Shown: positions 7,080 through 33,542 of the stretch, piece by piece | Layout of the letters: every line of letters starts with the position of its first letter | Position numbering within the stretch: position 1 is the stretch's first letter | Origin: Plantactinospora alkalitolerans | GTDB lineage: Bacteria; Actinomycetota; Actinomycetes; Mycobacteriales; Micromonosporaceae | Direction: 5' to 3' | Assembly: GCF_015690345.1 (NCBI RefSeq) | Contig: NZ_JADPUN010000129.1 | Span: 1 to 36,967 of the forward strand | DNA length: 36,967 nucleotides | Translations under genes and position numbers: made by a program | The notes under the pieces: model-generated | What the model saw: only the letters and a program-made list of their open reading frames with translations | Databases searched by the model: none | What the model was told of the DNA's origin: nothing

Positions 7080-7973
7080 CTACTGCCGTCCGCCGACCCG
7101 CACGAAGGTTGTTGCGGCGGTAACCCCCTCGGCGACTGCATGAGTAAGTGGGACCTTGTGAGCGAGTCGCGCGGCGAGGGTGCCGAGGAAGGCATCGCCC
7201 GCGCCGCTGGTGTTGATGGCGTTGACGTGCTGTGCGGGCACGAGTGCTGTGTGGTCGGCATCGCTGTAGACGGCGCCGCGGGCGCCGACGGTCAGCACTA
7301 CCGCTCGTGGCCCCAGCTTGCGGAGTTCCTGAGCCGCGATCGACGGATCAGCATGGTGGCGGCCCAGTATCGCCGCTGCCTCGGCTTCGTTCGAGACGAA
7401 CAGGTCGAGTGGGGCCAGCGCGGTCGCCCCGAGCGTCGGATGTGGTACGAGGTTGCCGATGAGCGTCCCGGCATCGTGATGTTGGAAGACGGCGTCAACG
7501 GCTTCGGGCTGGAGGTCGAGCTGGGTCACCACGGTCGGGGCCCGCAACTGCCGAAGTGCGCTGCGCACGTGCTCGCCGGTGAGCTCGGTCTTTGGAGGAC
7601 GTGCGAGGACGATGTAGTTCTCGCCGTCGGGGGTGACTTCGATGATCGCGATCCCTGTCGGAGCCGAGGGTACGAGTCGGAAGTGGGATACGTCGACGGC
7701 CGCGTCGGTGAGGGCTCGGTTCAGGAAGATGCCCCATTCGTCGTCGCCGACGTTGCTGATCAGGCTGGTGCGGGCACCCGCCTGGCGGGCGGCCAGGGCC
7801 TGGTTGAGACTCTTGCCACCCGGCGTGGTCGTGGCGGGTGATGAGGCGAACGTCGTCCGGCCGGGGACGGGCCGTTGGGGTATCCGCACCGTGATGTCGA
7901 TGTTGGCACGGCCGACAAAGGCGACATGCGGCGGCTGCGGGGAACGGGCCTGATCGGGCGGGTGGTGGTTCAT
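7080..7973 (-). CDS. PfkB-family (ribokinase-like) carbohydrate/nucleoside kinase
   Basis: A 297-aa cytosolic kinase of the ribokinase fold that uses ATP to phosphorylate a sugar or nucleoside hydroxyl. The N-terminal PfkB signature includes PGGKSLNQALAARQAG (about 51-66) and NVGDDEWG. The C-terminal signature is NTSGAGDAF (254-262), with Asp260 as the catalytic base and the GAGD anion hole intact. ATG at 7973 is 36 bp downstream of the creatininase 3' fragment stop, so before the transposon insertion the two genes were probably one operon. With RibA and a creatininase-type amidohydrolase nearby, a nucleoside or ribosyl-pyrimidine substrate is a reasonable guess. Ribokinase or adenosine kinase activity cannot be told apart here. 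Confidence 0.88.
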   Translation of the reverse strand: MNHHPPDQARSPQPPHVAFVGRANIDITVRIPQRPVPGRTTFASSPATTTPGGKSLNQALAARQAGARTSLISNVGDDEWGIFLNRALTDAAVDVSHFRLVPSAPTGIAIIEVTPDGENYIVLARPPKTELTGEHVRSALRQLRAPTVVTQLDLQPEAVDAVFQHHDAGTLIGNLVPHPTLGATALAPLDLFVSNEAEAAAILGRHHADPSIAAQELRKLGPRAVVLTVGARGAVYSDADHTALVPAQHVNAINTSGAGDAFLGTLAARLAHKVPLTHAVAEGVTAATTFVRVGGRQ

Positions 7974-8009
7974 CCGTTTGTGGCCAGTTGATCGAGGAGT
8001 TGCCGCACT

Positions 8010-8399
8010 TTAGGCATCTCGCTGTGTAAGCGGCTGGGCTTCGTTGCGTAGCACGGCAAGGCTGGCCGCTAACGAGGTGGTGAGGCGATCCAGGACGACT
8101 TTCCCTTTGCTGGCTGTGGCGAGGGACGGCTGGCCGATGACGCCGCTGTCGGTGTAGCCGCGCATACCGAGGATCAGCAGGTCCGGGCGTTCCGTGAGGT
8201 GGTCAGCGTTGTGATAGCCGTCCCGAACGAGTTCGGGACACAGGCGCAGCAGCAGGGAGGTTTCGATCTCCCCGGCGTGCATGTCGTCGTGGCTGCTGCT
8301 GGCCAGCCCGGCCTGCTGGCGGGCGGTCTCCCAGTCCTGCCGGCGCGGGTACAGGGCCATGCGCCGCCCATCGACGTTCGCTTCCTGCACGACGTTGGA
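8010..8399 (-). pseudogene. creatininase-family amidohydrolase, 3' half (split by transposon)
   Basis: This is the C-terminal half of the resident creatininase-family gene, whose N-terminal half lies at 19086-19440. It starts at the insertion point with NVVQEANVDGRRMALYP and continues through SHDDMHAGEIETSLLL, which holds the conserved metal/active-site Glu region. It ends at a TAA at 8010-8012. The frame stays open into the element to a GTG at 8441, so a 143-aa truncated product could be made but would lack the N-terminal metal ligands. Creatininase-family members include creatininase, MftE and the archaeal FAPy deformylase ArfB. The last acts just after GTP ring opening and fits the nearby ribA. 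The 36-bp gap to the kinase shows the original operon order. Confidence 0.88.
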
Positions 8400-8412
8400 T
8401 TTACCGACCGCG
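8400..8412 (+). repeat. left terminal inverted repeat of the Tn554-like element
   Basis: TTTACCGACCGCG on the plus strand, matching the right end over 13 bp without mismatch. The adjacent host-side core is GTTGGA (8394-8399). In a circular form the two ends would flank a 6-bp spacer as perfect inverted arms, the usual layout of a tyrosine recombinase core site. Confidence 0.85.
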
Positions 8413-8557
8413 AGCGCCGACGCGACGGCCATGACCTGCACCTTTGTTCAAACTACATGTCAGCGAGGCAGCAATGGCGAAGGGCTTGCCGGGTTCACCC
8501 GTTTGGCGTGCGGAGTAGGTCGATCACTTGTAGAGGCGCGGGTGCCAGACTGGAGCG

Positions 8558-8829
8558 GTGATCGTCGAACTTCGCTCGGTGCCGGACTGCCCGAACCTCC
8601 CCCAGTCCGAGATGTGCTGTACGCCGCATTGGCCGACTTGGGTCTGCCACCTGAGGTGACGAAACTGGTCGGTGACTATCCGTCGCCGTCGGTGCTGATT
8701 AACGGTGTTGACGTGATGGGCCGCTCCGCCGACGGCGTCGCGGCATGCCGGCTGGATCTGCCGACCAGCGTACATATCCGCGCGACCCTGCGGCATGCTT
8801 TGGCGTCCGAAACCGGGTCGACCCGTTGA
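8558..8829 (+). pseudogene. thioredoxin-fold small protein, frameshifted
   Basis: GTG at 8558 opens IVELRSVPDCPNLP, then the frame shifts at the CCCCC run near 8602-8608. In the next frame the protein continues as VRDVLYAALADLGLPPEV, then LVGDYPSPSVLINGVDVMG, AACRLDLPT and a TGA at 8827-8829. The composite is about 90 aa. It has the appearance of small thioredoxin/glutaredoxin-like proteins with an N-terminal CPN motif that accompany actinobacterial mercury or alkylmercury genes. Either the gene is broken or a base is missing in the assembly. It is the first cargo gene inside the left end. Confidence 0.6.
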
Positions 8830-8869
8830 TCAAGCCCGCCGGGGTGGGCCGGGATCGGCTATCTGGGGG

Positions 8870-9415
8870 CTATGCGGGCAGCGACCCCGGCGAGGATCGG
8901 TTGGTCGATCGATTCCTGCACGCATGGGCGAATAGCCAGGTGATGAGCCTGTCAGGGTCGAGGTCGAGGAGATCTGCTAGCCGGGTGGCCAACCCAGCCG
9001 GGTCGGCAACCAGCCGTTCCTCGCAGTTGAGCAGGTGTTGCAGCGCATCGTAGGTCGGGTCGCCCACGTACGGTTTTGGGGTCGATGGCAAGCCAAGGCT
9101 CCCGCTGCGCGGCCAGCACGTTGCCGGCGTGTAGGTCGGTGCACAGCAGTATCTGCCGCTCGGCGGTGGCGGGCAGACTGTGAAACAGCTCGATCCCGGC
9201 GCGTGTCAGTCCCGGGTCCATCAGGCTGGCCGACGTGGTGAGCTTCTCGCCGAACTCTGCGGCCCAGGCGTCGCACATCATCTGCAGCGGCCGGAACGGA
9301 TAGGCATCGGTGGTCGCGGTCCACAACCGCTGCAGCAGGGCTGCCATGACCTCGTCCTGCTCGGGTTCCGGCAGCGACTGCGAGAGGCTGGTCCCGGGGC
9401 GGCTTGCGCGGTGCC
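8870..9415 (-). pseudogene. APH(6)/hydroxyurea-type phosphotransferase, C-terminal remnant
   Basis: Reading leftwards from about 9415: PGTSLSQSLPEPEQDEVMAA, then the Brenner-type motif LLCTDLHAGNVLAAQREPWL with IDPK, after which the frame is lost. An extra A in the CCCAAAACCG run near 9078 explains it. The next frame continues PYVGDPTYDALQHLLNCEER to a stop at 8870. This matches the C-terminal lobe of the aminoglycoside (streptomycin 6-)phosphotransferase/hydroxyurea kinase family, including the catalytic TDLHAGN and metal-binding D of IDPK. The N-terminal lobe is missing because the alpha/beta hydrolase gene ends just upstream. It is non-functional cargo, a relic of a resistance gene. Confidence 0.75.
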
Positions 9416-9448
9416 TAATCGGTCTGCCTGCAGCACCTCGCGGGTCCC

Positions 9449-10282
9449 TCAGTGTTCGCTGCTGAAGAACCGTAGCAACAGCGGGCCGACGGTCTGTGGG
9501 TCGACGACGTGATCCGGCCCCTCGAGGGTCTCCCGTTGAGCGTGGGGTAGTAGGTCTGCGAGCTCGTCGGCTGCGCGGTCGAAGAAGTCCGAGGGCAGGC
9601 CTGCCATGTAGGGGGCCGTGATCGGTCCTCCGGTGGTGACCAGGACCGGTTGGGTGACCGTTGCCAGTCGATCGGCCGGCAATTGGTAGCGGTTGAGGAA
9701 GACGCTGTCGTGGACCAGCGTGGGCGCGAGGGCGACCGAATGCGCCCAATGCGCCGTCTGCTTGCCTGCCGCTTTCCTGGCCGCGATGTTGTCGTCGGAG
9801 GCGCCGGTCATGCGCATGAACAGTTCGAGAACCTCCTCGTCTCGCCCGGCGTCGAAGGCGCGTCGGGTGTCTGCGATGTACTCCTCGAATCGCGGGCGTA
9901 TGTCGTCCCCGACCGCGTAGGGCACCTCCCACACGGCGATCGTGTCGATGGCTGACCCGGCCGCGGCGGCTTCCAGCGCCAGCGCGCCGCCTGAGGACGC
10001 CCCGAACAGGTGTGCCGAGCCGCCCGCCTCCGCGATCAACGCATCCAGGTCCTCGATCTCCCTGTCCACGGCGTACGGCTCGGTGAAGCCGCTCGCGCCG
10101 CGTCCCCGACGGGCATAGTTGTAAACCGTGAAGTGCTCGGCGAGAGCAGGTACCAAGGGAGCGTTCTCGGCTCCGTCGTCCAGTCCGCCGCCTACCAGGA
10201 CGACAGCCGGGCCGCTTCCCTTCCGGTCGTAGGCGATGGCGGTGCCATCGTTTGATGTCACGCGAAAGGCCATCTCGTTCAT
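9449..10282 (-). CDS. alpha/beta hydrolase
   Basis: A 277-aa hydrolase without signal peptide. The nucleophile elbow is FGASSGG (93-99), with Ser96 in GxSxG. The oxyanion region LVGGGLDDG is near residue 29 and the likely catalytic His is in GPDHVVD close to the C-terminus. It resembles the small alpha/beta hydrolases that often follow DrrAB-type ABC genes in actinomycetes. It lies 27 bp downstream of the DoxX-like gene on the same strand and is probably the last gene of the PadR-controlled operon. Substrate unknown; drug inactivation would fit the setting but is inference. Confidence 0.85.
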   Translation of the reverse strand: MNEMAFRVTSNDGTAIAYDRKGSGPAVVLVGGGLDDGAENAPLVPALAEHFTVYNYARRGRGASGFTEPYAVDREIEDLDALIAEAGGSAHLFGASSGGALALEAAAAGSAIDTIAVWEVPYAVGDDIRPRFEEYIADTRRAFDAGRDEEVLELFMRMTGASDDNIAARKAAGKQTAHWAHSVALAPTLVHDSVFLNRYQLPADRLATVTQPVLVTTGGPITAPYMAGLPSDFFDRAADELADLLPHAQRETLEGPDHVVDPQTVGPLLLRFFSSEH

Positions 10283-10309
10283 CTCACATCTCCGTTCGAG
10301 AGGTTTGTC

Positions 10310-10732
10310 TCAGCGCCTGAGCAGCGTGCCGACGACGGCCTCGGTGCGCGACCACCGCGCCCTTGCGATCACGGCCGCCACGACGAGTAAGGCGAGCGGC
10401 AGCCAAGGGCTCTGCTCGAGCACGAACTGATCGGTGATGACAGCACCGGTCAGCAATGCCGCCAACCCGAGACTGGCCAGGCCCGCCAGAGCCGGGATCA
10501 GAAGTCCAACCCCTCCCGCGACCTCCAGCGCTCCGACCAGGTACCGGAGCCACTGGCCAGCCCCGATGTCGGCGAACATGTCCACCATGTCCGGGTCGCC
10601 GGCGAGCTTCGAGATTCCGCCGCCGGCGATTATCGCCGCCAGGACGACTTGCAGAATCCAGACGCCGATGCTGCCCGCCCGCCCGGGCGTGTGCGCAACG
10701 GTTTCCGAGTTGTTCTTGGGGATGGTGCTCAT
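10310..10732 (-). CDS. DoxX-like membrane protein
   Basis: A 140-aa integral membrane protein with four hydrophobic segments: around VWILQVVLAAIIAGGG (23-38), LVGALEVAGGVGLLIPALA, LASLGLAALLTGAVI and LPLALLVVAAVIA. This is the DoxX/DoxX-like pattern. The frame is open to 10816, but ATG at 10732 has AAGGAG 7 nt upstream and gives a normal length, so I use it. It lies between the ABC permease and the alpha/beta hydrolase. DoxX-like proteins are linked to redox or membrane stress; the exact role here is unknown. Confidence 0.82.
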   Translation of the reverse strand: MSTIPKNNSETVAHTPGRAGSIGVWILQVVLAAIIAGGGISKLAGDPDMVDMFADIGAGQWLRYLVGALEVAGGVGLLIPALAGLASLGLAALLTGAVITDQFVLEQSPWLPLALLVVAAVIARARWSRTEAVVGTLLRR

Positions 10733-10835
10733 GCGTCTCTCCTTGTCGTGTCCGGGCCTGGTACCGGTGATGGCGTTGGCCGAGTGGGCCGGGTTGTCGG
10801 AGTTGATGTCGACCAAGTGCTCGCGGTAGCGGGAT

Positions 10836-11681
10836 CTATTTCTTGTTGCGGTAGAGGACCATGGTGATGGGACCGAAGACCGCGACGAGAAGTACGGACG
10901 AGACGAGCACCCAGCCGATTTCCCCGGCGGGCACCGAGCCGTGCATCAGGCCGCGTACCACGGTCGCCAGGTGGGTGATCGGGTTGACCTCGATGACCGC
11001 CTGAAGCCATCCGGGCATCGTCTTCGGGTCCACGAAGATGTTGCTCACGAACGTCAGTGGGAACATCACCATCATGCTGACCCCCGCGACCGAGTTCGGC
11101 GTGCGCAGGATCAGGCTGAGCATCGTCCACAGCCACGACAGGCAGAACGAGAACACCAGCAGCAGCGCGACCGAGAGCACCACGCCGACGGCGCCGCCCT
11201 CCGGCCGGAACCCTAGGACCAGGCCGAGCATGATGACGATCGCCGACCCGATCGAGTAGCGCACCAGATCGCCGAGCAGGGCGCCGACCAGCGGGGACGG
11301 TCGCCACACCGGGAGCGACCTGAACCTGTCGAAAACGCCTTTCTGAATGTCGGTGTTCAGCGTAATACCAGTGTTCATGGTGATCATGACGTTCGCCTGC
11401 ACCAGGATGCCCGGCAATAGGAACTGCAGGTATTCCTGCGTCGACCCGGCGAGCGCGCCACCGAACAGGTAGGCGAACATCAACGTGAACATGATCGGGA
11501 ACATGGTCACGTCGACGAGCTGCTCCGGGACGTGTTTGATCTTCAGCAAAGCGCGCCAGCCGAATGTCAACGAGGTACTCACCGGACCGGGTCGGGGCGG
11601 GCGCTCACCGGCCAAGAGCACACCGCGCAGCGCGTCCTCGGTGACCGGCGGCGACGCCTGCTCCGCGGACGTGGCATTCAT
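10836..11681 (-). CDS. ABC-2 type transporter permease (DrrB-like)
   Basis: A 281-aa inner-membrane permease with a cytoplasmic N-terminus of about 60 residues and six hydrophobic segments. The ABC-2 signature region includes [20 protein letters not shown] and [20 protein letters not shown], with [16 protein letters not shown] near the end. These are hallmark segments of the daunorubicin-resistance DrrB subfamily. ATG at 11681 overlaps the ATPase stop as ATGA (11678-11681), so the two subunits are translationally coupled. The pair should export a hydrophobic compound, plausibly an antibiotic. Substrate not identifiable. Confidence 0.9.
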
Positions 11682-12643
11682 GCGGCATCCTCCTTGGGTG
11701 TCTCCTCGGACGGGTGACCGGTCAGGGCGAGAAACACCTCGTCCAGGCTCGGCTGACCGAGCGCGAACTCGGTGACGTCGATGCCGCCGCGGGACAGCTC
11801 GGCCAGGGCGCGGGCGACCCGCTCGGGGTCGGAGATCCTTGCGGACAGCGCGACCGGGTCGGTGGACGGCTCGACCTGCACCTCGAGGACGCCGGCGAGG
11901 ACCCGCTCGGCCTCGGCCCGCTGCTCGGGCGCACGTAGCCGTACGTGCAGCGAGCCGGCGCCGAACGATGCCTTGAGCTGGCCGCTGGAGCCCTCGGCGA
12001 TGACCTTCCCGTGGTCGATCACCGCGATGCGGTCGGCCAGCTGGTCGGCCTCGTCGAGGTACTGCGTGGTCAACAACACGGTGGTGCCTTCGGCGACCAA
12101 ACCCCTGACGATCTCCCAGACCTGGTTCCTGCTGCGCGGGTCGAGCCCGGTGGTCGGCTCGTCGAGGAAGATCAGTTCCGAGGGGACGACCAGGCTCGCT
12201 GCGATGTCGATGCGCCGGCGCATCCCGCCGGAGTACTTCTTCACCTGCCGGTCGGCGGCATTGGCGAGCCCAAACGCGTCGAGCAGGTCGGCCGCTCGCC
12301 GCCTGCCCCGCGGGCGCGAGTAGCCGAGCAGCCTGGCGAGCAGCAACAGGTTCTCCACCCCGGTGAGATCCTCATCGACCGACGCGAACTGCCCGGTAAG
12401 GCTCACCCGGGTCCGTACCGAACGCGCATCACGCACGACGTCGTAGCCGAGCACTTGCGCCTCTCCGGCGTCGGGGCGCAGGAGCGTGGCGAGCATGCGG
12501 ATCGTGGTGGTCTTGCCCGCCCCGTTCGGGCCGAGCACGCCGTACACGCCACCGGCGCTCACGGCCAGATCCACACCGGCGACCGCGTGGGTCTTGCCGA
12601 AGCTCTTCTTCAACCCTCTCGTCTCGATCGCGAGCTTTCCCAT
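11678..12643 (-). CDS. ABC transporter ATPase (DrrA-like)
   Basis: A 321-aa cytoplasmic ATPase partner of the downstream permease. Walker A is GPNGAGKTT (38-46), the signature is YSGGMRRR (137-144), Walker B is [12 protein letters not shown] (157-168) and the switch His lies in [11 protein letters not shown]. The C-terminal extension of about 90 residues, ending EVFLALTGH, is typical of DrrA-type drug exporters. The frame continues to a TTG at 12694, but ATG at 12643 ([10 protein letters not shown]) has GAGAAGGA upstream and is the better start. Its leader contains two PadR-type palindromes. The first eight codons are part of a 344-bp duplication that recurs upstream of padR. Confidence 0.9.
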
Positions 12644-12687
12644 GGGTTCGAGTCCTTCTCTCGGTGTTGCGAACGGATTGGTTGAGC

Positions 12688-12703
12688 TAGTCAAGTTTGA
12701 CTA
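12688..12703. promoter_or_regulatory. operator-like palindrome upstream of the ABC ATPase
   Basis: TAGTCAAGTTTGACTA: perfect 7-bp arms TAGTCAA/TTGACTA around a 2-bp centre, 45 bp upstream of the ATPase start. A related site, TAGTCAAGGTTGATTA, lies at 12734-12749 with one arm mismatch. Two spaced sites between padR and its target operon are the expected layout for PadR repression; binding itself is inferred. Confidence 0.65.
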
Positions 12704-12733
12704 CTTGGCCAGAGTACGCGAGGAGGAAACATC

Positions 12734-12749
12734 TAGTCAAGGTTGATTA
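12734..12749. promoter_or_regulatory. second operator-like palindrome, overlapping the padR stop
   Basis: TAGTCAAGGTTGATTA matches the 12688 site in one arm and differs by one base in the other. It spans the last codon of padR. The 46-bp centre-to-centre spacing is between four and five helical turns. It is repeated at 13479-13494. Confidence 0.55.
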
Positions 12750-13340
12750 GAAGCGCATCTTGAGGGGATCGTGGACCGTTCGCCACGAACCCGGATCATC
12801 GGCCATGGTGTAGGCGCCCTCAGACAGTCGTTTGCTCAGGCTCTTCGCCCACTCCAGTTCGGTGCGTGCGTGTCCCGCCCACAGTTCGGCCTGATCGCGG
12901 ACGTGCTCGGGGACGTCCCGATTGGGGTGCTCCCACCCCTTGGCCTGCCCTACGAGCTCCGCTTCCAGGCGCGCGACCCGCTCGTTAATGTGCGCGATGG
13001 CATCTGTCCTGGTCAGCATGGGCAACATGGCGATGGCCGCGTCGAGCATGGTGGGGTCATGGGTGCGCCGCAGACCGTCGCGGACCAGTTCGACTATCTC
13101 GTCACGTCCCCGAGCTGTCGCGCGGTACAAAACGCGCTCCGGCCCGGAGTTGCCCGGCTCGGCGTGTTCGGTGAGGAGGCCATCAGCCGCCGCCTTCTTC
13201 AGCGCGTGATAAATCGAGCCGGGCTTGATCTTGGCCCAAATCTCCGCACCCCAGCTCTGCAGTTCGGACCGCACCTGGTAGCCATGCGCGCCGCCGGAGA
13301 GGTGCACGATACCGAGTACCAGGAGCTTCGTCGCCGACAT
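12747..13340 (-). CDS. PadR-family transcriptional regulator
   Basis: A 197-aa repressor-type protein. The N-terminal winged helix shows the PadR pattern: LLVLGIVHLSGGAHGYQVRS, then IKPGSIYHALKKAAADGLL and a wing ending VLYRATARGRDEI. The C-terminal half (residues about 90-190) is the helical dimerisation domain. ATG at 13340 has GGAGG 7 nt upstream. The frame extends to 13388, where eight duplicated codons of the ABC ATPase (MGKLAIET) are fused in frame; that longer start is less likely. It probably represses the downstream ABC/DoxX/hydrolase operon, and itself, through the TAGTCAA-type palindromes. PadR regulators of DrrAB-like exporters are usually released by the exported drug. Confidence 0.88.
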   Translation of the reverse strand: MSATKLLVLGIVHLSGGAHGYQVRSELQSWGAEIWAKIKPGSIYHALKKAAADGLLTEHAEPGNSGPERVLYRATARGRDEIVELVRDGLRRTHDPTMLDAAIAMLPMLTRTDAIAHINERVARLEAELVGQAKGWEHPNRDVPEHVRDQAELWAGHARTELEWAKSLSKRLSEGAYTMADDPGSWRTVHDPLKMRF

Positions 13341-13365
13341 GCGCCCACCTCCGCTCAATCTGCTT

Positions 13366-13709
13366 GTCTCGATCGCGAGCTTTCCCATGGGTTCGAGTCC
13401 TTCTCTCGATGTTGCGAACGGATTGGTTGAGCTAGTCCAGTTTGACTACTTGGCCAGAGTACGCGAGGAGGAAACATCTAGTCAAGGTTGATTAGAAGCG
13501 CATCTTGAGGGGATCGTGGACCGTTCGCCACGAACCCGGATCATCGGCCATGGTGTAGGCGCCCTCAGACAGTCGTTTGCTCAGGCTCTTCGCCCACTCC
13601 AGTTCGGTGCGTGCGTGTCCCGCCCACAGTTCGGCCTGATCGCGGACGTGCTCGGGGACGTCCCGATTGGGGTGCTCCCGCCACTTGGCCTGCTCTACGA
13701 GTTCCGCTT
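13366..13709. repeat. direct repeat copy 2 upstream of padR
   Basis: Second copy of 12621-12964. It supplies padR with the same leader as the ABC ATPase. Its first palindrome carries one change (TAGTCCAGTTTGACTA, 13433-13448), while its second (13479-13494) is unchanged. The upstream-most part encodes a truncated padR. Confidence 0.9.
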
Positions 13710-13746
13710 GCGCGCCCGCCAGGGTGGTGTCAACTCCCACCAACAC
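13492..13746 (-). pseudogene. padR fragment, C-terminal 70 codons
   Basis: Produced by the 344-bp duplication: residues from about HPNRDVPEHVRDQAELWAGH to the C-terminus LKMRF are identical to the intact padR, but the DNA-binding domain is absent. The open frame reaches 13746, but the first 20 or so codons are unrelated sequence. A translated product would at most interfere with PadR dimers. Confidence 0.75.
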
Positions 13747-13880
13747 TAGGGTGCCCTCCTGGTCCGGGTGGTGTCAGCACTGACCTACAAGCGGTGCTGG
13801 TGGAGACCTCCAAAGCCACTCGACAGGCATTCCTGCACCGGGCAGCCGCCGGACTCACGACCCGTGGCACGCTAGGCAGC

Positions 13881-14591
13881 GTGAACTTCCTGCTGCCAAC
13901 GGCCACCTCCGCGCAAGAGGCTGCCCGCTCCGCGCGTACCGCCGTGCTGCCGGTGGGCAGTTTCGAGCAGCACGGTGAATATCTGCCGTTGATCACGGAC
14001 ACGGTGGTGGCGTGCCTGGTAGCGGGTCGTGTCGCGGCCGACTATCGAGTGTTGCTGCTGCCGCCGATCACGATCTCCTGCTCGCATGAGCACGCCAGCT
14101 TCGCCGGGACGGTAAGCATCAGCGCCCGAACGCTGATTGCGGTCGTGGAGGACATCGACGAGTCGCTGCGGGCCGCTGGGGTCGAGAACCTGGTGATCGT
14201 CAACGGGCATGGCGGGAACTATGCGCTGCGCAACGTCGTGCAGCAGTCAACGACGGTCCGGCCGCGGATGGCGCTGTTCCCCGCGAGCGAAGACTGGACA
14301 GCGGCCCGGGCCGACGCGGGCTGTGAGACGGGGTCGCACGAGGACATGCATGGTGGGGAGCTTGAGGTCTCCCTGTTGCTGCACGGGGCTCCGGAGTTGC
14401 TGCGGGAGGGATATCAGTCGGCCGACCACGATGCGAACGACCGTCCGGATCTGCTGACGGTGGGGATGCGCGCCTATACCGCCTCAGGGATCATCGGTCG
14501 GCCGTCGTCAGGCAGTGCGCAGAAGGGCGCGGCGGTGTTGGACAGCTTGTCTCGGTCGTTCACCCGGGTGCACAAGCTGCTTGAGCTCTGA
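13881..14591 (+). CDS. creatininase-family amidohydrolase, intact copy carried by the transposon
   Basis: A 236-aa enzyme with all the expected creatininase-family motifs: SFEQHGEYLPLITDT (metal ligands Glu, His and Asp), SCSHEH, NGHGGN and SHEDMHGGELE. The family hydrolyses C-N bonds in cyclic or formyl amides; members include creatininase, MftE and the FAPy deformylase ArfB. GTG at 13881 aligns with the start of the resident copy; the ribosome binding site is weak (AGGCAG). It reads towards tnpC (stop-to-stop gap 22 bp), opposite to the rest of the cargo. It is clearly homologous to, but diverged from, the gene split by the element. It may therefore supply the lost activity. Confidence 0.88.
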   Translation: MNFLLPTATSAQEAARSARTAVLPVGSFEQHGEYLPLITDTVVACLVAGRVAADYRVLLLPPITISCSHEHASFAGTVSISARTLIAVVEDIDESLRAAGVENLVIVNGHGGNYALRNVVQQSTTVRPRMALFPASEDWTAARADAGCETGSHEDMHGGELEVSLLLHGAPELLREGYQSADHDANDRPDLLTVGMRAYTASGIIGRPSSGSAQKGAAVLDSLSRSFTRVHKLLEL

Positions 14592-14613
14592 TCGCCGATG
14601 TGCCGGCCGCTGG

Positions 14614-15201
14614 TCAAGTTCTGCCGGCCGGGTTGGCGATGCGGCTTTCGAGGTCGGCGATGCGCCGGTCCTGGAAACGTAGGGTGGACCGGGCGGCCGT
14701 GAGCCTTTCCTCCAAGGTGCGGTTCTCGATGGTCAGCTGCCGGACCCGCTGCTTGAGCGTGGTGTTCTCGGTGGTGATCCGCGCGATGGTTTCATCGTCC
14801 CACTCGGCTTGCAGGTCGCGGATCTGGCCGAGGAGTTCACCGATGCGGGTGCGTTGACGGGCGATCTCCGTGTAGCCGCTCTTGAGTGCGTCTTCGGCGT
14901 TGAGCGCGCGTTCCCGCCATACGGCCTGCCGCGCGTCGTCCTGCGCCAGGCGCGACAGCGTGTGCCGCTGGTCATCATCGGCCACGGCGGCGGCGACCGC
15001 GGCACGCGCCTGCGGGTTGTCATACACGAAGGTCCGGGAGACGTTGGCGCGGCGGGCGACCGCGGCGACAGTGACGCGGGCCTTCTCCCGCCGCAGGACG
15101 GCGAGGGCGTCCTGGACCCGCTGCACTGCGGCTTGGCTACGGTGTCGCCGGGCCGCAACGGCGGCGGCCGTGCGGGCACTGGACCTGGCCGAGGCGCTCA
15201 C
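14614..15201 (-). CDS. tnpC: Tn554-type TnpC accessory protein (DUF6262-like)
   Basis: A 195-aa basic protein. The N-terminal part has an HTH-like segment (VTVAAVARRANVSRTFVYDN), and the C-terminal two-thirds is a long coiled coil (RQRTRIGELLGQIRDLQAEW, RQLTIENRTLEERLTAARST). This is the shape of the third protein of Tn554-like trios, annotated DUF6262 in actinobacteria. In Tn554, TnpC is not essential but affects efficiency and orientation. GTG at 15201 overlaps the tnpB stop as GTGA. It is the last gene of the tnpABC operon. Confidence 0.85.
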   Translation of the reverse strand: MSASARSSARTAAAVAARRHRSQAAVQRVQDALAVLRREKARVTVAAVARRANVSRTFVYDNPQARAAVAAAVADDDQRHTLSRLAQDDARQAVWRERALNAEDALKSGYTEIARQRTRIGELLGQIRDLQAEWDDETIARITTENTTLKQRVRQLTIENRTLEERLTAARSTLRFQDRRIADLESRIANPAGRT

Positions 15202-17783
15202 CCGGCATCCAGAGAGTCGTTGGGGTCGTCGGCTTGCGCGCCGGCTGCGGTCAGGTCGCGGGCGCGGAAGGCAGTGGACCAGACGCGGTGGAAGTAGTCC
15301 TGCGGTTTGCGTAGATCGAGCGCGAGGGCGTCATCGAGGAGACCGAGCCCAGCCAGGGCCTTCTCCAGCCCGTCGATGGCCCGGGCGGTCGGCTCGAAGT
15401 GCTGGTGCAGATAGTCGGCGGTGGGGTCGTCGGGGGCGCCTTCGGCCAGCAGCCGCCACTGTTCGCGTTTGCGCCGCCAGTAGAGCAGGTCGGCGCCGGA
15501 CAGCACGAACTTGTCGCAGTTGTGACAGTCCAGGTTCCACGGGCAGGCGCCGCCATCGACGACGGGTTGGAAGGTGCAGAACCCGCCTTCGGCGGGCGTG
15601 CTGCGTCGCGACAGGTCGATCGCGAGGGCCAGCGCCTCGGCTTGGGTCAGCGGCGACGTGTCGGTGGTCAGTAGCTCGCCGGGGTTGGCGGTCCCGGGTC
15701 CGGCGACCCACACGTGCTGCAACACCTGTTCCAGGTCGGAGTGGGCCAGATGTACGTAATGCTCGGCCATCCGGTCGGAGACCTGGCCGAGGTAGCGGCG
15801 GATGTGGGTCAGAGTTGCGCCCTGGCGCAGCAGGTTCGTGGCCAGAGTGTGCCGGGCCTGATGCGGCACCCAATGACCAAGGTCGATCTCTGTGACCCAG
15901 GCGCGGAACGGGCCGTAGAACCACTCCTTGGACAGTGACACCGTCCCCAGGGGGTTGCGGTACGGGCTCGGGAACAGGGCCAGCCGGGCGCGCTGCTCGC
16001 CGACCGGCTGGTAGCCGTGGCGGGCGGTGAAGCGTTCCAGCGTCTTGGCCTGCCTCGTCTCCAACCGGCCGTAGACGCGTTCCGGGATGCGGATGGCGGC
16101 GTCGAAGTTACCCACCTTGGTTTGGTCGTGCCAGAACATCGCCAACCCGCCATAGCGGCCCAGGCAGTCCCAGCGCACCTCCAGCACCTCACCGATGCGC
16201 CGACCTGTGGCAATCAGCGTCTCCCAGATGTCACGCACGCCGTGACCGGCCGAGTCATGGTGCTCGGCGAGCCGGCGCAGGTTCGTCTCGTCGGCCAGCG
16301 CACGCGCGACCTCATCCGGAAACGGCCGCCGGGCCCGCACCGGAAGCCCTTCACAAGCCGGCAGTGCGGTGACGAACTGCCGGTCCAGGCCGAGCCGGTC
16401 GGCGGCACCGCTGTCCAGGGCGTCGCGCATCACCGTGCGTACGCCGTTGAAGACCAAGCCGCGGGTGGTGGCGGTGACCGTCGAAGGCTTGCCGCCAGCC
16501 TTGGTGATGCCCAGCGACGGCAGTCCGTCGCGTTCACGGCGGCGTTGGTCGGCGACGAACCGGCCCATGTGCTCGCCGCGCAGCACCGTAGGGTCGTGCC
16601 CGCCGCCCAGGGCATCGACCGCGAGGAAGGCGCCCAGCTCAACGCACGCGCGCCGCAGGTTGTCGAAGCTGCCGGCGGTGCGCGGGCAGCGCGGCGACTG
16701 CAACAGCCCGGCCAGGTAGTCCCAGGCCAGATCCCGCAACCAGCGTTGCGGGATCGCAGTCAGGTCGAAACGGCTGGTGCGCCGCGGGAACCGAACCCCG
16801 AAGTGCTCGGTGTCCAGCATCCCGGTCTCGCGGGCATCGGCCGGGGTGCGGTAGATGCGCCACAACTCCCGGGCGATCTCCCCGCCGATACGACGGACGC
16901 AGCGGTCAGCGTTGTCCATCCCGAGGTCGGCCAAGGAGTTCATGCCGGCGGCGCGGCAGGTGTTGACCAGCTTCTGGATCGACCCGACGTCCCAGCGGGT
17001 CGGTCGTGGCTGCTGCGTGTGCGCGAACAGGCCCCACTGCAACTCCGCCCGCAGCAACATGCGTAGCCCACGCGAGTTCACCTGTGCCGGCCACGGCATC
17101 GGCTCCGCACTCGCGCACCAGCGCCGGAACGCCCGCTCGTCCTGATAGGACACGGGAGTCGGCCTGCCGTGTTGCTCGTAGCACTGGGACCACGCCGGCG
17201 GCAGCGCAGCCGAACCAGGGGTGCCGGCCTTGCGGTACCGCGTCTCGTGGCCGAAACACAACCCCAGCGGCGAGTCGGCCGGGCTCGGGCACACCGCGAC
17301 CACGCAGCCACCGAAGCCCGCGTACGGCTGTTGCCCCGCAACCCAGCCCGCGAAGGCTGCCTCGTCCAGGACACCCCGGCGTTTCCACCGGCTCAGGTGC
17401 CGATGGCACAGCCGCCACCGGGTGTGCGCCGCCGGTCGGTCCGGGCAGATCCGGCACGCCGCCTCCTCCACCCACTCCGACGGTGCCAGCGGCTCCGCCG
17501 CCGCAAGGAACGCGGCCTTACCGACGCCGCGCCGGCTGGCCTGGCCCCACGCCCGCATATGCACCGAGCACATGTCCGTCCCGCTGGACCGAACCCGCTC
17601 ACAGGCGGGCACCACGCACCACCACCGGTAGGTGGAATGGTCACGAGGAATCCGGATCACGTCGGTGCGGAACATCGGGTCGAAGGACGGCGCACTGATC
17701 AGGACGGTGAGGATCTCCAGCCGGTCCCGGCCCACCCGGTCCGGTCGCGAAGGCTCCGGTAGCAGCGCGAGGGTCGCGGTCAC
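15198..17783 (-). CDS. tnpB: Tn554-type tyrosine recombinase TnpB
   Basis: An 861-aa site-specific recombinase. The frame remains open to 18362, but GTG at 17783 overlaps the tnpA stop as GTGA and gives a sensible N-terminus. The first 200 residues carry several Cys/His pairs (CSVHMRAWG, CRICPDRPAAHTRWRLCHRH, CFGHETRY) that look like zinc ribbons. The catalytic domain has Arg in ATGRRIGEVLEVRWD (about 528), HxxR in PHQARHTLATNLL (about 641) and Tyr in MAEHYVHL (about 675). A C-terminal cysteine cluster follows (CPWNLDCHNC). It acts with TnpA on the element ends and the 6-bp core. Confidence 0.9.
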   Translation of the reverse strand: MTATLALLPEPSRPDRVGRDRLEILTVLISAPSFDPMFRTDVIRIPRDHSTYRWWCVVPACERVRSSGTDMCSVHMRAWGQASRRGVGKAAFLAAAEPLAPSEWVEEAACRICPDRPAAHTRWRLCHRHLSRWKRRGVLDEAAFAGWVAGQQPYAGFGGCVVAVCPSPADSPLGLCFGHETRYRKAGTPGSAALPPAWSQCYEQHGRPTPVSYQDERAFRRWCASAEPMPWPAQVNSRGLRMLLRAELQWGLFAHTQQPRPTRWDVGSIQKLVNTCRAAGMNSLADLGMDNADRCVRRIGGEIARELWRIYRTPADARETGMLDTEHFGVRFPRRTSRFDLTAIPQRWLRDLAWDYLAGLLQSPRCPRTAGSFDNLRRACVELGAFLAVDALGGGHDPTVLRGEHMGRFVADQRRRERDGLPSLGITKAGGKPSTVTATTRGLVFNGVRTVMRDALDSGAADRLGLDRQFVTALPACEGLPVRARRPFPDEVARALADETNLRRLAEHHDSAGHGVRDIWETLIATGRRIGEVLEVRWDCLGRYGGLAMFWHDQTKVGNFDAAIRIPERVYGRLETRQAKTLERFTARHGYQPVGEQRARLALFPSPYRNPLGTVSLSKEWFYGPFRAWVTEIDLGHWVPHQARHTLATNLLRQGATLTHIRRYLGQVSDRMAEHYVHLAHSDLEQVLQHVWVAGPGTANPGELLTTDTSPLTQAEALALAIDLSRRSTPAEGGFCTFQPVVDGGACPWNLDCHNCDKFVLSGADLLYWRRKREQWRLLAEGAPDDPTADYLHQHFEPTARAIDGLEKALAGLGLLDDALALDLRKPQDYFHRVWSTAFRARDLTAAGAQADDPNDSLDAG

Positions 17784-18961
17784 CGCAACTCGCCCCAGAC
17801 CGTGCGCAGCGCGGCGTCGAACGCCGGGTCGTGCACGTCGACGTGCGCGTAGATCTCGTCCACGACGGACGTTGAGGACCAGCCTCCGGCGTCGCGGGCG
17901 ATGACCAGATTCCCGCCAGCCGCATCGAGCACGGCGCTGGCGAAGCTGTGCCGGAACGAGTGGGGTTTCACCGCGCCGAGGCCAGCCCGACGTCCCGCGC
18001 GAGCCAGCATCCGCCGCGCTGCCACCGGCGCCCACGGCTGCCCATGGCCAGGGCCGTGCAGCTGGACCAGCAGCATGCCATGCCCGGCAACGCTGCGCGG
18101 GTACTCGCTGGTGACGTACTCGAAGTAGGTGTGGACCATCGCCGGGCTCACCCGCTTGACCAGCCCGCCGGTCACCGTACCGTCCTCGAAGCGCCACGGA
18201 TGCTTGGTCTTCGCCTCCGCCCGGTTCGGGTTGCCCGGCCGGTGGCACACGTGCACATGCGGCGAGCGGCACTGCCCGCACCTGGCGTTCTCGCGAAGGT
18301 GTAGGTCCAGCAGGTGCAACCCACACAACTCGCCGATGCGCAGCCCGCCGTCGGCCAACCACGTCACCACCATCCGGTCCCGGGCCGTCCTCACCTCAGC
18401 CCGCAGCCGTTCCCGCGCGCCCTCGGGCAGCATCTTCGGATGCCGGCGGTGCGGCCCGCGCGGAGCCAACGGATTCGCCGGCATCCCGGCCTTCACGTGG
18501 CCCAGAAACGAGCGGCGCCGATCGGCCCGCGACGGCAGTCGGGTCCGGCCCAGCTGCCCGCCGAGCTCACCGTTAACCCCCAGCGACGCCTGATGCAGGT
18601 AGAAGCCCTTCAGACACGCCGCCGCCGTCGACAACGCCGAGCGCCCGTACGGACGCTTGCCCTCCCGCCATGGCTGCCCCAGCGGCATGCGGACCTCGGC
18701 CCCGACCAGACCCATGTACCGCTCAAGATCCCGCAGGCCGACCGCTGCCAGCGGCAGACACTCCCGATCCAGCCACCGCAGATGATCGACCAGCAGATAG
18801 GCATAGGTCCGCTGGGTGCCGGAGCCGTCATGCCGGCGCAGGAACCGGTCCGCCTCCAAATGGAGGTTGCCCTCCGGGTAGACGATCGTCCACGCTCGAC
18901 TCCCGTCACCCCGCCTGATCTCTTGAACCCGGAAATCTCCGACCACAACAGTACGAGCCAC
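17780..18961 (-). CDS. tnpA: Tn554-type tyrosine recombinase TnpA
   Basis: A 393-aa recombinase. The N-terminal SAM-like domain (about 35-125) precedes a catalytic domain with Arg208 in GGLRIGELCGL, His334 and Arg337 in HSFRHSF, Trp361 in the fourth position and nucleophile Tyr371 in EIYAHVD. An inserted Cys/His stretch (CGQCRSPHVHVCH, about 228-240) is seen in Tn554-like TnpA proteins. GTG at 18961 is chosen because the overlapping ATG at 18963 is out of frame. First gene of the trio, 112 bp inside the right terminal repeat, so its promoter must lie in the terminal region containing the 12-bp subterminal repeat. Confidence 0.9.
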   Translation of the reverse strand: MARTVVVGDFRVQEIRRGDGSRAWTIVYPEGNLHLEADRFLRRHDGSGTQRTYAYLLVDHLRWLDRECLPLAAVGLRDLERYMGLVGAEVRMPLGQPWREGKRPYGRSALSTAAACLKGFYLHQASLGVNGELGGQLGRTRLPSRADRRRSFLGHVKAGMPANPLAPRGPHRRHPKMLPEGARERLRAEVRTARDRMVVTWLADGGLRIGELCGLHLLDLHLRENARCGQCRSPHVHVCHRPGNPNRAEAKTKHPWRFEDGTVTGGLVKRVSPAMVHTYFEYVTSEYPRSVAGHGMLLVQLHGPGHGQPWAPVAARRMLARAGRRAGLGAVKPHSFRHSFASAVLDAAGGNLVIARDAGGWSSTSVVDEIYAHVDVHDPAFDAALRTVWGELR

Positions 18962-19005
18962 ATGCCCTCCACCCCGACGCCGCGACAGGTCGGACGTGCC
19001 GGACC

Positions 19006-19016
19006 CGGTCGGTAAA
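19006..19016 (-). repeat. subterminal copy of the element's end repeat
   Basis: TTTACCGACCG on the minus strand, in the same orientation as the right terminal repeat and 69 bp inside it. I found no such second copy near the left end. It could be an accessory recombinase binding site that makes the two ends unequal, or overlap the tnpA promoter. Confidence 0.6.
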
Positions 19017-19072
19017 CGAGCACGGGACGTCCTTGGTCACAAGCCAGGGCGAACGTCGCGGACAGTCCTACC

Positions 19073-19085
19073 CGCGGTCGGTAAA
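19073..19085 (-). repeat. right terminal inverted repeat of the Tn554-like element
   Basis: Reads TTTACCGACCGCG on the minus strand, going into the element from the creatininase 5' half. The host-side core is GTTGAA (19086-19091, plus strand). It differs from the left core GTTGGA at one position. Confidence 0.85.
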
Positions 19086-19440
19086 GTTGAACAGCACGTA
19101 GCTCCCGCCATGGCCGTTGACCACGATCGACCGCTCGACACCCGACCCGCGCAGCGACTCGGCGATGTCGGTGATGATGCCTGCCAGGGTGGACGAGCGG
19201 ATACTCACCGAGCCTGGCCAGCCGGTGTTCCTGTGAGCAACTGATGGTCACGGGAGGCAGAAGCATCAAGTCGTAGGCGGTGGCAGCAGCTTTCGCGATG
19301 GCGCAGGCGACGATCGTGACCGTGACCAGGGGTAGATGATCTCCGTGTTGCTCAAAACTGCCATTGGGTAACACGGCGACGTCCGCGGCGCGGTTAGCCT
19401 CTTCCGTGGTCGTCGCGGCGGTGACCAAATCCATGATCAC
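19086..19440 (-). pseudogene. creatininase-family amidohydrolase, 5' half (split and frameshifted)
   Basis: The resident gene starts at GTG 19440 or ATG 19434 and reads DLVTAATTTEEANRAADVAV, LPNGSFEQHGDHLPLVTVT and PPVTISCSQEHR. A one-base shift near 19220 then moves the sequence to another frame, which continues VSIRSSTLAGIITDIAESLR and IVVNGHGGSYVLFN up to the insertion point. Two lesions are visible besides the split: the frameshift, and TVT where the intact cargo copy has TDT, i.e. loss of the metal-ligand Asp. The gene is therefore dead. Before insertion it headed the operon now continuing at 8399-7080. Confidence 0.88.
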
Positions 19441-19637: not shown

Positions 19638-20186
19638 TCACTTTAGATCGAGCACCATCGCGTCGTACACGGGTGCGTCGTTGAACGGTTGTAAGCGGCC
19701 CAGCTTGTACCAGCCCCATAAACGATACGCGGAGCGAGCGGGAATGTTATCGGGCAACACAAGCAGGGTTGCTCGTTCTTCTGGCCGACCGGCGAGCAGA
19801 GCGTCGTGTAAGAGTTTGGCATAACCACGTCGCCGGAACGCCTCACGGACCATGATCTCGTTCAGCGCGAACGTACGCCGCCCATCTTCGGTCAGCAGGG
19901 CGGGTTCGACGTCGTCTCGGAGACCCGACCACCACCGCGACCCTTGCGGCAGGGCGTAGCCCAATGCATAGCCGATGAGTTGGTCCTCGATGCGGCCGGC
20001 CACGGCTGAGAAGCCATCGCGCGAGGCATACGCAACGAGCCGATCCCAGTATCGTGGGACGGAAAAGAACGGGGTCTCGAGCTGTTCCTCGTAGACCTCG
20101 GTGTAGACCGCTAACAGTTCATCGCGATGCCTGTGCAGGTCTGCTGATTCGAGGCGCTCGACTGTAGTTGGCGTACTGGCTGTCAC
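19638..20186 (-). CDS. GNAT-family N-acetyltransferase
   Basis: A 182-aa acetyl-CoA-dependent transferase. The GNAT core includes GRIEDQLIGYALGYALP (beta4 region), ALNEIMVREAFRRRGYAKLL with the acetyl-CoA loop R-R-x-G-Y/A, and LLVLPDNIPARSAYRLWGWY, the usual N-x-A-x-x-x-Y end. The frame is open to 20546, but GTG at 20186 overlaps the upstream regulator stop as GTGA, so that start is preferred. It is coupled to the HTH-TPR regulator, a frequent pairing in actinomycete genomes. Acceptor substrate unknown. Confidence 0.88.
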   Translation of the reverse strand: MTASTPTTVERLESADLHRHRDELLAVYTEVYEEQLETPFFSVPRYWDRLVAYASRDGFSAVAGRIEDQLIGYALGYALPQGSRWWSGLRDDVEPALLTEDGRRTFALNEIMVREAFRRRGYAKLLHDALLAGRPEERATLLVLPDNIPARSAYRLWGWYKLGRLQPFNDAPVYDAMVLDLK

Positions 20187-21619
20187 TGGGGCCCCGCCAC
20201 GCTGGGGTAACGGGCAAGGAAGCCGGCGACGGCGGGAATCTCTGGGTACGCGGCGAGTTGGTGGGCGACGGCCTCCAACTCGGCGTTGACCCGCCAGCTC
20301 GCCACCTCCTCGGCTAGGTCGTCGAGTGCCTCGTTCGCAGCGTCCGCTGCGCCATCTGGCGCGCCGGCCGTGAGACGAGCGCGGGCCAGGCGCACCCGGT
20401 AGAGGGCACGGTTCCGTGCGTACCGATCGTCGTATCCAGCGATTGCCCGTTCGAGTAGCGTCTGGGCTTGGGTGGTCCGGCCAAGTTCGACTGCGCAGGT
20501 CCCTTCGATGCCGTCCAATTCGGCTGGACTGAGGAAGGTGCACCACTGCTCGGTTGGCTTGTCACCGTCGCGGTCGAGCACGCGCCTTGCCAGGCGGATC
20601 GCCGTGTCGGTGCCGCTCTGATCGGCCATCAATGCCGAGGCGATCGCCTTTCGGAGTTGCGGGACCGCACCCAACCTTGGAGGGCCGCCGATGGTCGATG
20701 TCGCATTCTCCGCTGCGGAAGCAAACCGGGATGCCTCGCGCGGCCGAGCAAGGGCATTTGCCTGGAGTGCCAGGTATGACAGCGTTGCCGTCTCTACCTC
20801 TCGGTCGCTGGCCTGGCGGGCGAGGGCTAACGCGTCGGTGAAGCAGTTCCGGGCGATCGTGTGCTCGCCCGCGTCGAGGGCCAGCCATCCAGCACACATC
20901 TGCACCCGACCTGTAGCTTTGAGGAGGTGACCCTCGACTGTGCCGGTGTACGTGCCTTGTTCCAACATGGCATAGCCGTCGTTGACTTTCGCGGTGGCTG
21001 CCTGCCACAGGCTGTCGCCGCCGTGGCGATAGTCCAGTCCGTACAGGCGCACGGCGGCTTTCGAGAGCCGCTCCGCATCGTGAGCGCCCACCCTGCCAGC
21101 ATGGGCAACGGATGATCTTCCGACTCCAGTGCTGGCAACCGCCGCTGCCGTTGCGCCCCACTTGACCAGAGTTCTCCGCCTCATGTCGTCAAACGCTACT
21201 CCGGGGAGGTCGTTCGGGACACCACTGATCTCAGCGCATCCGGCTGCGGTACTCCTCGCGACCGGATCCGGCACTGCCCCGTAGCCCGACTGCGCAATCT
21301 GCCTTGACCATGTATCAATGTCTCCCCACCGCGCCCGCGCCGCGCCTGCGGCCCTTTCGGCCTGAAACTGCCGCTCCAGCTCCTGGAAGCGGCCATAGGC
21401 CAAGATCAGTTCACCACCGGCCCGAAGCAATGCGTCGCACCTGGCCCAGAAAGTGTGGTCGACGACCTGAGCGCCGCGCTCAACCCCCGCAATCGTGCTG
21501 CGCGAGGAGGGTACCGATCGAGCCAGGTCGAGCTGCGTGAGCTTACGTGTGGTTCGCCAGCCTGCAAGCTTCCTCCCGAGTTCCTTCTTGGCGGTGTCGA
21601 CGTCCTGGGAATTGATCAC
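20183..21619 (-). CDS. HTH (XRE-type) regulator with TPR-like repeats
   Basis: A 478-aa regulator. The N-terminal helix-turn-helix spans about 14-55 (LAGWRTTRKLTQLDLARSV, SSRSTIAGVERG). A linker follows, and from about 190 a helical TPR-like array with repeated A/L patterns (GHLLKATGRVQMCAGWLALD, ARNCFTDALALARQASDREV). It resembles the large HTH-TPR regulators common in Streptomyces and Micromonospora. An internal TVVKWGATAAA-like segment (LVKWGATAAAVAST) precedes the TPR part. Coupled to the downstream acetyltransferase. Probably a DNA-binding regulator; target unknown. Confidence 0.85.
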   Translation of the reverse strand: MINSQDVDTAKKELGRKLAGWRTTRKLTQLDLARSVPSSRSTIAGVERGAQVVDHTFWARCDALLRAGGELILAYGRFQELERQFQAERAAGAARARWGDIDTWSRQIAQSGYGAVPDPVARSTAAGCAEISGVPNDLPGVAFDDMRRRTLVKWGATAAAVASTGVGRSSVAHAGRVGAHDAERLSKAAVRLYGLDYRHGGDSLWQAATAKVNDGYAMLEQGTYTGTVEGHLLKATGRVQMCAGWLALDAGEHTIARNCFTDALALARQASDREVETATLSYLALQANALARPREASRFASAAENATSTIGGPPRLGAVPQLRKAIASALMADQSGTDTAIRLARRVLDRDGDKPTEQWCTFLSPAELDGIEGTCAVELGRTTQAQTLLERAIAGYDDRYARNRALYRVRLARARLTAGAPDGAADAANEALDDLAEEVASWRVNAELEAVAHQLAAYPEIPAVAGFLARYPSVAGPQ

Positions 21620-22396
21620 CGAACCGGGCCTCCCGCCGTGGAGGGAACTTGACGGTCATGTCGGACCTCCGCGTCGAGGCTGTCCGACACAGCGCATGGG
21701 CACCCTAACCGATTGTGGCGACGCGGGTCGGCCGATTAGGACGGCACTTCACGCATCGACCTCGACACATCATCGCCCACGCACTCCGGCTACTTTGATC
21801 AAGATAAGGAAAGAACCTCATGCAGCCTGATCGCGGCAGAGTCCGTGTCGGAGACGCTCGACACTTCGGTGTCGTCGAGGGGGTCCGACGTGGGGCTCTC
21901 GGCACACCCAGGTGAGTTCGCAGCTTCTGGGATGTCCGTCGTCCACGGCGCGCCGCAACCAACCAGCCTTCACCTGCGGCGCCGCCCGAGCCGATCTGGG
22001 TTCGGTTCGAGCGAGAGGGCGGCCCGCCCTGCAAGGACTCCCCCGTCCCAATATCTGGGCTTTGACGCCGACACGATGAGTCATGATCAAAACGCGCCTG
22101 GACAGGGTGAGCATCCGTCGGACGGAGCAGGACGCGAGGGACGCTCGTCGCACGAGCACTATCCGAGCACCCAGACGTCCACAAGGGACTGAAGCACAAA
22201 TGGACCGGCCCGTCGTTTCAGCACGTCAAGACCCTGTTTGATCTTGTGCGACCGACGGGATTCGGACCCCTAGACTCCTGTTCCGTAGTCAGATGGACAG
22301 CAATAGGGACAGTCGGCCACGGCCTTCCGCCTCTGCGTCTGTTGTCTACCTCGGCGACGGTCTGCGAAGTTGGGGGCAGGAGACAGTGGGGGGCTT
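21620..22396. other. non-coding stretch between the HTH-TPR regulator and the NACHT gene
   Basis: No supported gene in 777 bp. The divergent neighbours mean promoters for both should be here. AT-richer DNA occurs at about 21785-21825 and 22190-22250. Bases 22253-22275 resemble a tRNA T-arm (gggattcggaccccta) on the minus strand, but no cloverleaf can be drawn. It could be an old integration site for the downstream island, without proof. Confidence 0.35.
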
Positions 22397-33507: not shown

Positions 33508-33542
33508 CACTACTCCCCTGACTGAGGGTCGGCATTCGCTGC

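Follow-up and report, generated by a model that had tools for sequence, protein, structure and literature searches.

Tn554 inserts into radC and, to our knowledge, carries no copy of that gene. Elements that pair the disruption of a gene with a homologue of it are already known. Tn552-II of Staphylococcus aureus, a tnpABC element, carries a gene termed target-gene-like, tgl, to which its authors ascribe a possible rescue of the disrupted target; they also describe att-like copies within tgl and propose that it acts jointly with the target gene in transposition (PMC12486829). In Vibrio cholerae S24, the recA mobile element RME occupies a single site in recA and brings a divergent recA that works in Escherichia coli, and its authors argue, in the excerpted account, that the host is thereby spared (PMC4405046). 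Integration into tRNA genes likewise leaves the host with the gene, as the excerpt on the Islander islands has it (PMC4383910).

Here we describe an element that lies in a creatininase gene of Plantactinospora alkalitolerans, within a window of 36,967 nucleotides (the whole stretch of DNA that was analysed), and carries inside it a complete homologue of the disrupted gene, as tgl and RME do. Like Tn552-II, it is a tnpABC element with a short core at its ends, whereas Tn552-II targets a YolD-like gene and CDS40, has a 7-bp core and bears β-lactamase cargo; the part of that report at hand compares tgl and target identities, and a host census, a selection test and a relic are, relative to that part, found only here (PMC12486829). 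RME, which also cuts its target and carries a divergent homologue, differs in being a 32.8-kb island that encodes a phage integrase and an XerS-type recombinase, in its 9-bp repeats and in its housekeeping target (PMC4405046, in excerpt). In the tRNA-gene islands, as excerpted, island sequence completes the split gene (PMC4383910), whereas our element leaves the host gene broken and brings a complete, separate and divergent one. The hosts given for the Tn554-related class in the excerpt of its description are Staphylococcus and Enterococcus (PMC10214605); ours are actinobacteria. The original prediction, made from the window alone, had called a mobile element that repays its host unusual, an assessment that the Tn552-II and Vibrio recA elements weaken. 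New here are two target families, a lineage-constant, constrained cargo with varying targets, and a single relic; no creatininase or GT2 case appeared among the matches listed in the open-licence literature, which covers few subscription papers and preprints.

The element and the split creatininase gene

Because the inverted repeats TTTACCGACCGCG terminate it at 19085 (-) and 8400 (+), we set the length of the element at 10,686 bp (Table 1); comparable element ends recur at nine junctions, four of them on the left and five on the right. PF00589 in both tandem recombinases (393 and ~855 aa) and DUF6262 in the third gene fit the tnpABC arrangement of Tn554-related elements, and the Tn554-type assignment follows from gene order, domains and insertion mode rather than from alignment to Tn554 sequences. 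In addition to what the original prediction described, the element reaches down to 8400 and includes the PadR, ABC-transporter, DoxX-like and hydrolase genes. Beside the cargo gene, the PadR gene's end and the ABC ATPase gene's beginning are present twice, as part of a 300-nt direct repeat (98%) at 12610-12909 and 13355-13654. Beyond the target, large genes at 22370-25255 and 31888-33654 give weak NACHT/AAA-like and GmrSD_C-like matches below curated cut-offs, and this region is possibly of a defence type.

Table 1. Coordinates of the element, its genes and the disrupted host gene in the window
Feature	Position	Strand	Remarks
Whole Tn554-type element	8400..19085	-	10,686 bp; inverted repeats TTTACCGACC at ends
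tnpA, tyrosine recombinase, 393 aa	17780..18961	-	Pfam Phage_integrase
tnpB, large tyrosine recombinase, ~855 aa	15198..~17783	-	PF00589; start codon approximate
tnpC-like gene, 195 aa	14614..15201	-	DUF6262
Cargo creatininase gene, open	13881..14591	+	Convergent with tnpC
Passenger PadR-type regulator	12747..13388	-	
Passenger ABC transporter ATPase (DrrA-like)	11678..12694	-	
Passenger ABC transporter permease (DrrB-like)	10836..11681	-	
Passenger DoxX-like gene	10310..10816	-	
Passenger alpha/beta hydrolase gene	9449..10282	-	
Partial APH(6)/hydroxyurea kinase-like fragment	8955..9512	-	PF04655 positions 93-189 of 252 only
N-terminal half, disrupted host creatininase	19086..19440	-	Start GTG 19440 or ATG 19434
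C-terminal half, disrupted host creatininase	8010..8399	-	Sequence match
Left core hexamer TTCAAC (Phe-Asn codons)	19086..19091	-	Junction sequence
Right core hexamer TCCAAC (Ser-Asn codons)	8394..8399	-	Junction sequence

The cargo is an open reading frame of 236 aa that passes the curated cut-off of PF02633 (198.1 against 31.3 bits), and a longer frame containing it (13611-14588) matches Pfam Creatininase with an E value of 2e-58. It retains the motifs SFEQHG, TDT, NGHGGN and HGGE, some of which we take to be metal ligands. Among solved structures, creatinine amidohydrolases come closest to it in sequence (E 8.5e-14 to 1.7e-11), and it falls below the NCBIfam equivalog cut-offs for MftE (128.3/172 bits), creatininase (95.5/235) and FAPy deformylase (ArfB; 35.1/180). 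Identity to the pieces of the broken target is ~49-62%, and 43% in one frameshifted piece, so that equality of substrate between cargo and target is not assured.

A search of the window's own genome returned the host N-half in two pieces (19428-19065, -) and the C-half (8399-8067, -), both on the contig of the window, together with one distant homologue (32%) elsewhere. Thus, the prediction that an element splitting a creatininase gene carries an intact one, with the full motif set and between both target halves, was borne out, as were its details of the host copy: the two tblastn pieces of the N-half lie in different frames and overlap near 19220, where the gene is frameshifted, and the N-half reads TVT where intact host genes, such as that of G092 from the same genus, read TDT. 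The further suggestion that this decay marks a redundant function carries little weight, because any split gene is expected to decay.

One cargo lineage in several target genes

Relatives of TnpA were sought in 300 genomes of the family Micromonosporaceae (11 with matches), in genome contigs, where the best 80 of 106 relatives gave 79 loci, and in 50 plasmid records, from which three loci were taken; the resulting set comprises 93 loci (L018-L110). A creatininase sequence occurs in four of them (L018, L019, L020 and L045, of which L045 repeats the L018 insertion), all with a TnpA 88-95% identical to that of the window and each with a creatininase cargo adjoining tnpC and a creatininase N-half at the left end. 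The other 89 loci, some of which are duplicates or too short to reveal a cargo or target, have TnpA identities of ~49-82% and contain no creatininase at E 1e-3. When 354 genomes of the family were searched with the cargo protein, nine cargo-type copies (72-100% identity in the best stretch) were found in eight genomes, namely that of the window (G000), G130 (two copies), G010, G031, G251, G116, G322 and G351; a gene of G080 follows at 65% and the remaining listed matches at 54-63%. Across 394 genomes of the class, family members among them, the best match besides the window's own is 63% identical (E 1e-55 or better), and that in the plasmid records 61%. Only 81 of the 354 family genomes contain a gene of cargo or target type when the threshold is set at E 1e-45; it is therefore an accessory gene, the loss of which may cost little.

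Target pieces accompany the cargo in six of the eight genomes, with both halves in G000, G010 and G031, the N-half in G130 (where the contig ends near) and the C-half in G251 and G116. The creatininase search, at the sensitivity of the census, found no target pieces in G322 and G351, and a decayed target start is present in G322 as the seventh case. An open host-type gene (55%) exists besides the cargo in G251 only; in five genomes (G000, G130, G010, G322 and G351) the cargo is the sole open copy of this creatininase subfamily that was found.

The insertions share one site. At all left junctions (window, L018, L019 and L020) and all right junctions (window, L020, L143 of G251, L172 of G116 and L174 of G031), the element abuts the codons after NGHGGxYVL, the cut falling directly after NGHGGxYVL-[S/F]-N, inside a conserved segment between NGHGGNYxL-[S/A]-N and VVQ, with no codons visibly lost as judged by sequence. 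The core hexamers over all junctions are TTCAAC, TCCAAC, TCGAAC, AGCAAT and AGCAAC, and the left/right pairs are TTCAAC/TCCAAC in the window, AGCAAT/TCCAAC in G010 (unlike, yet both encoding Ser-Asn) and TCGAAC/TCGAAC in G031. A 6-bp core, with a single hexamer on each side and a continuous target frame, shows site-specific insertion without target duplication, and the unlike hexamers of the window and G010 are compatible with a donor-derived right core or with later mutation. At 24 intact host loci, NGHGG is exact in 18, followed at the site by Ala-Asn in 12 and Ser-Asn in six, while the other six have a variant motif and then Ser, Ala or Gly before Asn. The cargos have Arg-Asn at the homologous site in eight of nine copies, the ninth (G116) having a 1-nt deletion nearby; because the native G080 gene also has Arg-Asn, this may reflect ancestry rather than protection against self-insertion. 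The exact right-junction pattern occurs in four of 250 family genomes (G000, G010, G031 and G116), all of which have the cargo gene; eight more matches had two mismatches, and a reversed-pattern control also gave scattered matches. Elements at the same target without a creatininase cargo were also sought, and none was found in the data searched; within this element lineage the gene is constant, as examined over the 354 genomes and 93 TnpA loci.

In a maximum-likelihood tree of 40 sequences (unrooted or midpoint-rooted), in which split targets were entered as composites, that of the window with a few residues from the wrong frame at its frameshift, the cargos form one side of a split with support 100 that leaves every host and target on the other, and they group with G080 (support 98), whose creatininase is their nearest relative. 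The split targets of the window and G031 group with G092, G120 and G060 (support 99-100), that of G116 lies within Micromonospora-type hosts (support 100) and those of G010, G130 and G251 lie in a third host clade (support 100). Since the targets fall in three clades and the cargos on one branch, a single cargo lineage occupies several different target genes, and the discord between the two phylogenies is what an element-borne gene would produce. The sequence comparison confirms that the creatininase gene travels with the element, because the same codons are cut in three host clades and the cargo branch has full support. A recent duplication of the host gene as the source of the cargo was ruled out by the per-piece identity of ~49-62%, by the separate branch and by the rejection of a tree constrained to join window target and window cargo (deltaL 169; the 2000 replicates of the AU test are few).

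The cargo probably came from a regulator/creatininase operon, long ago. The commonest conserved neighbour of intact orthologues is an XRE-like regulator gene, and the creatininase stands directly behind it on the same strand at 17 of the 24 intact loci (L149-L171 and others); neighbour genes were taken from a simple ORF caller and the XRE-like label follows the clustering of those frames, with Pfam HTH_31 confirmed for the window gene at 20186-21619 and for the G322 gene and no Pfam match for the gene upstream in G080. Upstream, the cargos have a stretch of 10 nt, GTGGCAGGCT (the window and G251 read GTGGCACGCT), with which the gene preceding the native G080 creatininase also ends, and capture from such an operon is likely because this stretch is common to the cargos and the locus of their nearest relative. 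The original prediction had placed the host gene in a working pathway operon. That placement found no support, as tblastn and neighbour clusters revealed no GTP-cyclohydrolase/PfkB neighbourhood at the 24 intact loci, where an XRE-like gene is the commonest neighbour; a PfkB neighbour occurs only at L142 (G351).

Six of the nine cargos are open, and among these dN/dS is 0.09-0.14 in 14 of 15 pairs at a dS of 0.2-1.3, the pair G010/G130b having no amino-acid change. As tnpA is constrained equally (0.111 between the window and G010), constraint on the cargo alone does not show a benefit to the host. The three broken cargos are those of G031 and G251 (loci L019 and L143), with the same 1-nt loss in a G-run near residue 100, for which sequencing error, a shared mutation and frameshifting stand side by side, and that of G116, with a 1-nt loss that shifts the frame and a divergent end. 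In G322 (L141), an open cargo is preceded by a decayed target N-terminus, which stands behind the HTH_31 regulator gene, and by 43 bp left over from the end of tnpC (score 41, against 33 for the best of 500 shuffles); this locus is the one relic seen, in which the cargo has outlasted both target and transposase. In G351, a syntenic locus holds an open cargo, and its examination revealed neither a tnpC remnant nor a decayed target; for this reason, and because the two cargos are unpaired in the tree despite synteny, only G322 is counted.

A second case in GT2 genes, and other targets

The 900 bp left of each element were compared with its interior in 132 loci including the window, which reduce to 92 distinct elements (23 duplicates and 17 short loci were dropped). 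Matches of at least 40 aa were found in seven, comprising four creatininase cases, two GT2 cases (L093 and L096) and one TrpA-like case (L223); a looser filter added one 22-aa match in L084, below the later filter. Because a control flank gave matches in 4 of 71 (L019, L026, L034 and L074), the count of seven is in itself no evidence, and the argument rests on an exact architecture repeated in separate insertions. A carried target homologue as a rule for the whole element group was rejected, 85 of the 92 having no flank-inside match of at least 40 aa.

The GT2 elements of Streptomyces sp. ISL-96 (L093) and S. lavendulae (L096) have both target halves and an open inverted cargo. The split in the target follows its His-Glu codons, and both junctions read CACGAG; left of tnpA stands the N-half (to residue 177), and right of the GT2 cargo the C-half (176-293). 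The two TnpA proteins are 90.5% identical and the cargos 85%, but identity to the L093 cargo is 62/79% for the one target and 36/49% for the other; hence these are separate insertions into different GT2 genes. A right end with a cargo and a C-half or its remnant is found in L235 (a plasmid of Streptomyces sp. NBC_00057) and L244, stretches in which the L093 TnpA and TnpB had no match. GT2 genes 75-90% identical to the cargo in stretches with no L093 TnpA or TnpB match are common, and apart from L235 and L244 they were treated as native. The GT2 cargo has a dN/dS of 0.09-0.19 and retains the His-Glu codons at the insertion site. By their structure, the GT2 loci are a convincing second case, and the GT2 and creatininase cargos were probably acquired independently, because the position of the cargo (right end versus adjoining tnpC) and the TnpA lineage both differ.

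L223 is a possible third case, as tryptophan synthase alpha (PF00290) is matched both by its left flank and by an inner gene (1158-1850 and 7960-8409); only part of the inner copy is present, and no second half of the target was recognised. At L070-L073, L100/L101, L215-L219 and L037/L059/L108, related elements lie in coding motifs of further genes, where the flank test detected no carried target homologue and where the left flanks, judged by eye, are presumably ATP-grasp-, ComM- and endonuclease-like.

What the carried gene may do

We consider it probable that this Tn554-type lineage has specialised on creatininase genes and that its own divergent copy offsets the damage and may persist as a xenologous replacement. 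The recombinases would direct the element to the conserved creatininase segment and split the gene, and a divergent creatininase, captured earlier from a regulator/creatininase operon, would ride with it. If expressed with an equivalent activity, this cargo would complement the broken host gene by supplying what the insertion destroys, so that insertion would cost the host little, possibly to the benefit of host or element. The transposase genes would decay later, and the element's enzyme would remain in place of the host's.

The cargo could also be a by-product of repeated landing in creatininase operons, neutral or useful in some other way without compensating for anything. Three of nine cargos are broken, and opportunity alone might explain the acquisition, given the 10 nt in common with the native G080 locus; we nevertheless find this unlikely in view of the low dN/dS across substantial divergence, a G322 cargo still open although tnp genes and target have eroded, and the similar arrangement with GT2. 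The cargo might also not be like for like, and displace the host version as a functional variant whose substrate differs or which has escaped the regulator. Such a variant would fit the contrast between native genes, mostly behind the XRE-like gene, and a cargo that stands alone and inverted, and a Clostridioides difficile insert whose thymidylate synthase is more active (Knetsch 2011, as cited in the excerpt of PMC4405046) offers a parallel. Conserved motifs and constraint are equally expected under like-for-like function, however, and we judge such displacement very unlikely.

It is more improbable still that the target-like gene serves the element itself, as a reservoir of target-like sites or by influencing the choice of target or the control of transposition, even though the cargo retains the homologous segment and the excerpted report on Tn552-II describes att-like copies in tgl and suggests a joint role with the target gene in transposition (PMC12486829). 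Arg replaces the Ser or Ala of most hosts at the site in eight of nine cargos, a change that speaks against such a service but may be inherited, as in G080, and the GT2 cargo keeps its His-Glu site codons, so that this argument is not uniform; the whole cargo protein, moreover, is under constraint. Compensation by the carried copy thus remains the reading we prefer. A broader proposal, which we put forward tentatively and hold with rather less than even confidence, is that carrying a divergent copy of the target is a strategy evolved repeatedly in Tn554-type elements (creatininase, GT2, YolD-like and possibly TrpA-like), making transposons vehicles of xenologous replacement, in which the host gene would be broken, the element's version substituted, the transposase lost and the foreign enzyme left as the resident gene.

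If the cargo does compensate, site-specific transposons can aim at conserved coding motifs, which would form a safe harbour besides tRNA genes and gene ends, and metabolic genes may be swapped for distant homologues without homologous recombination. The creatininase and GT2 lineages provide testable pairs of cargo and intact orthologue in actinobacteria.
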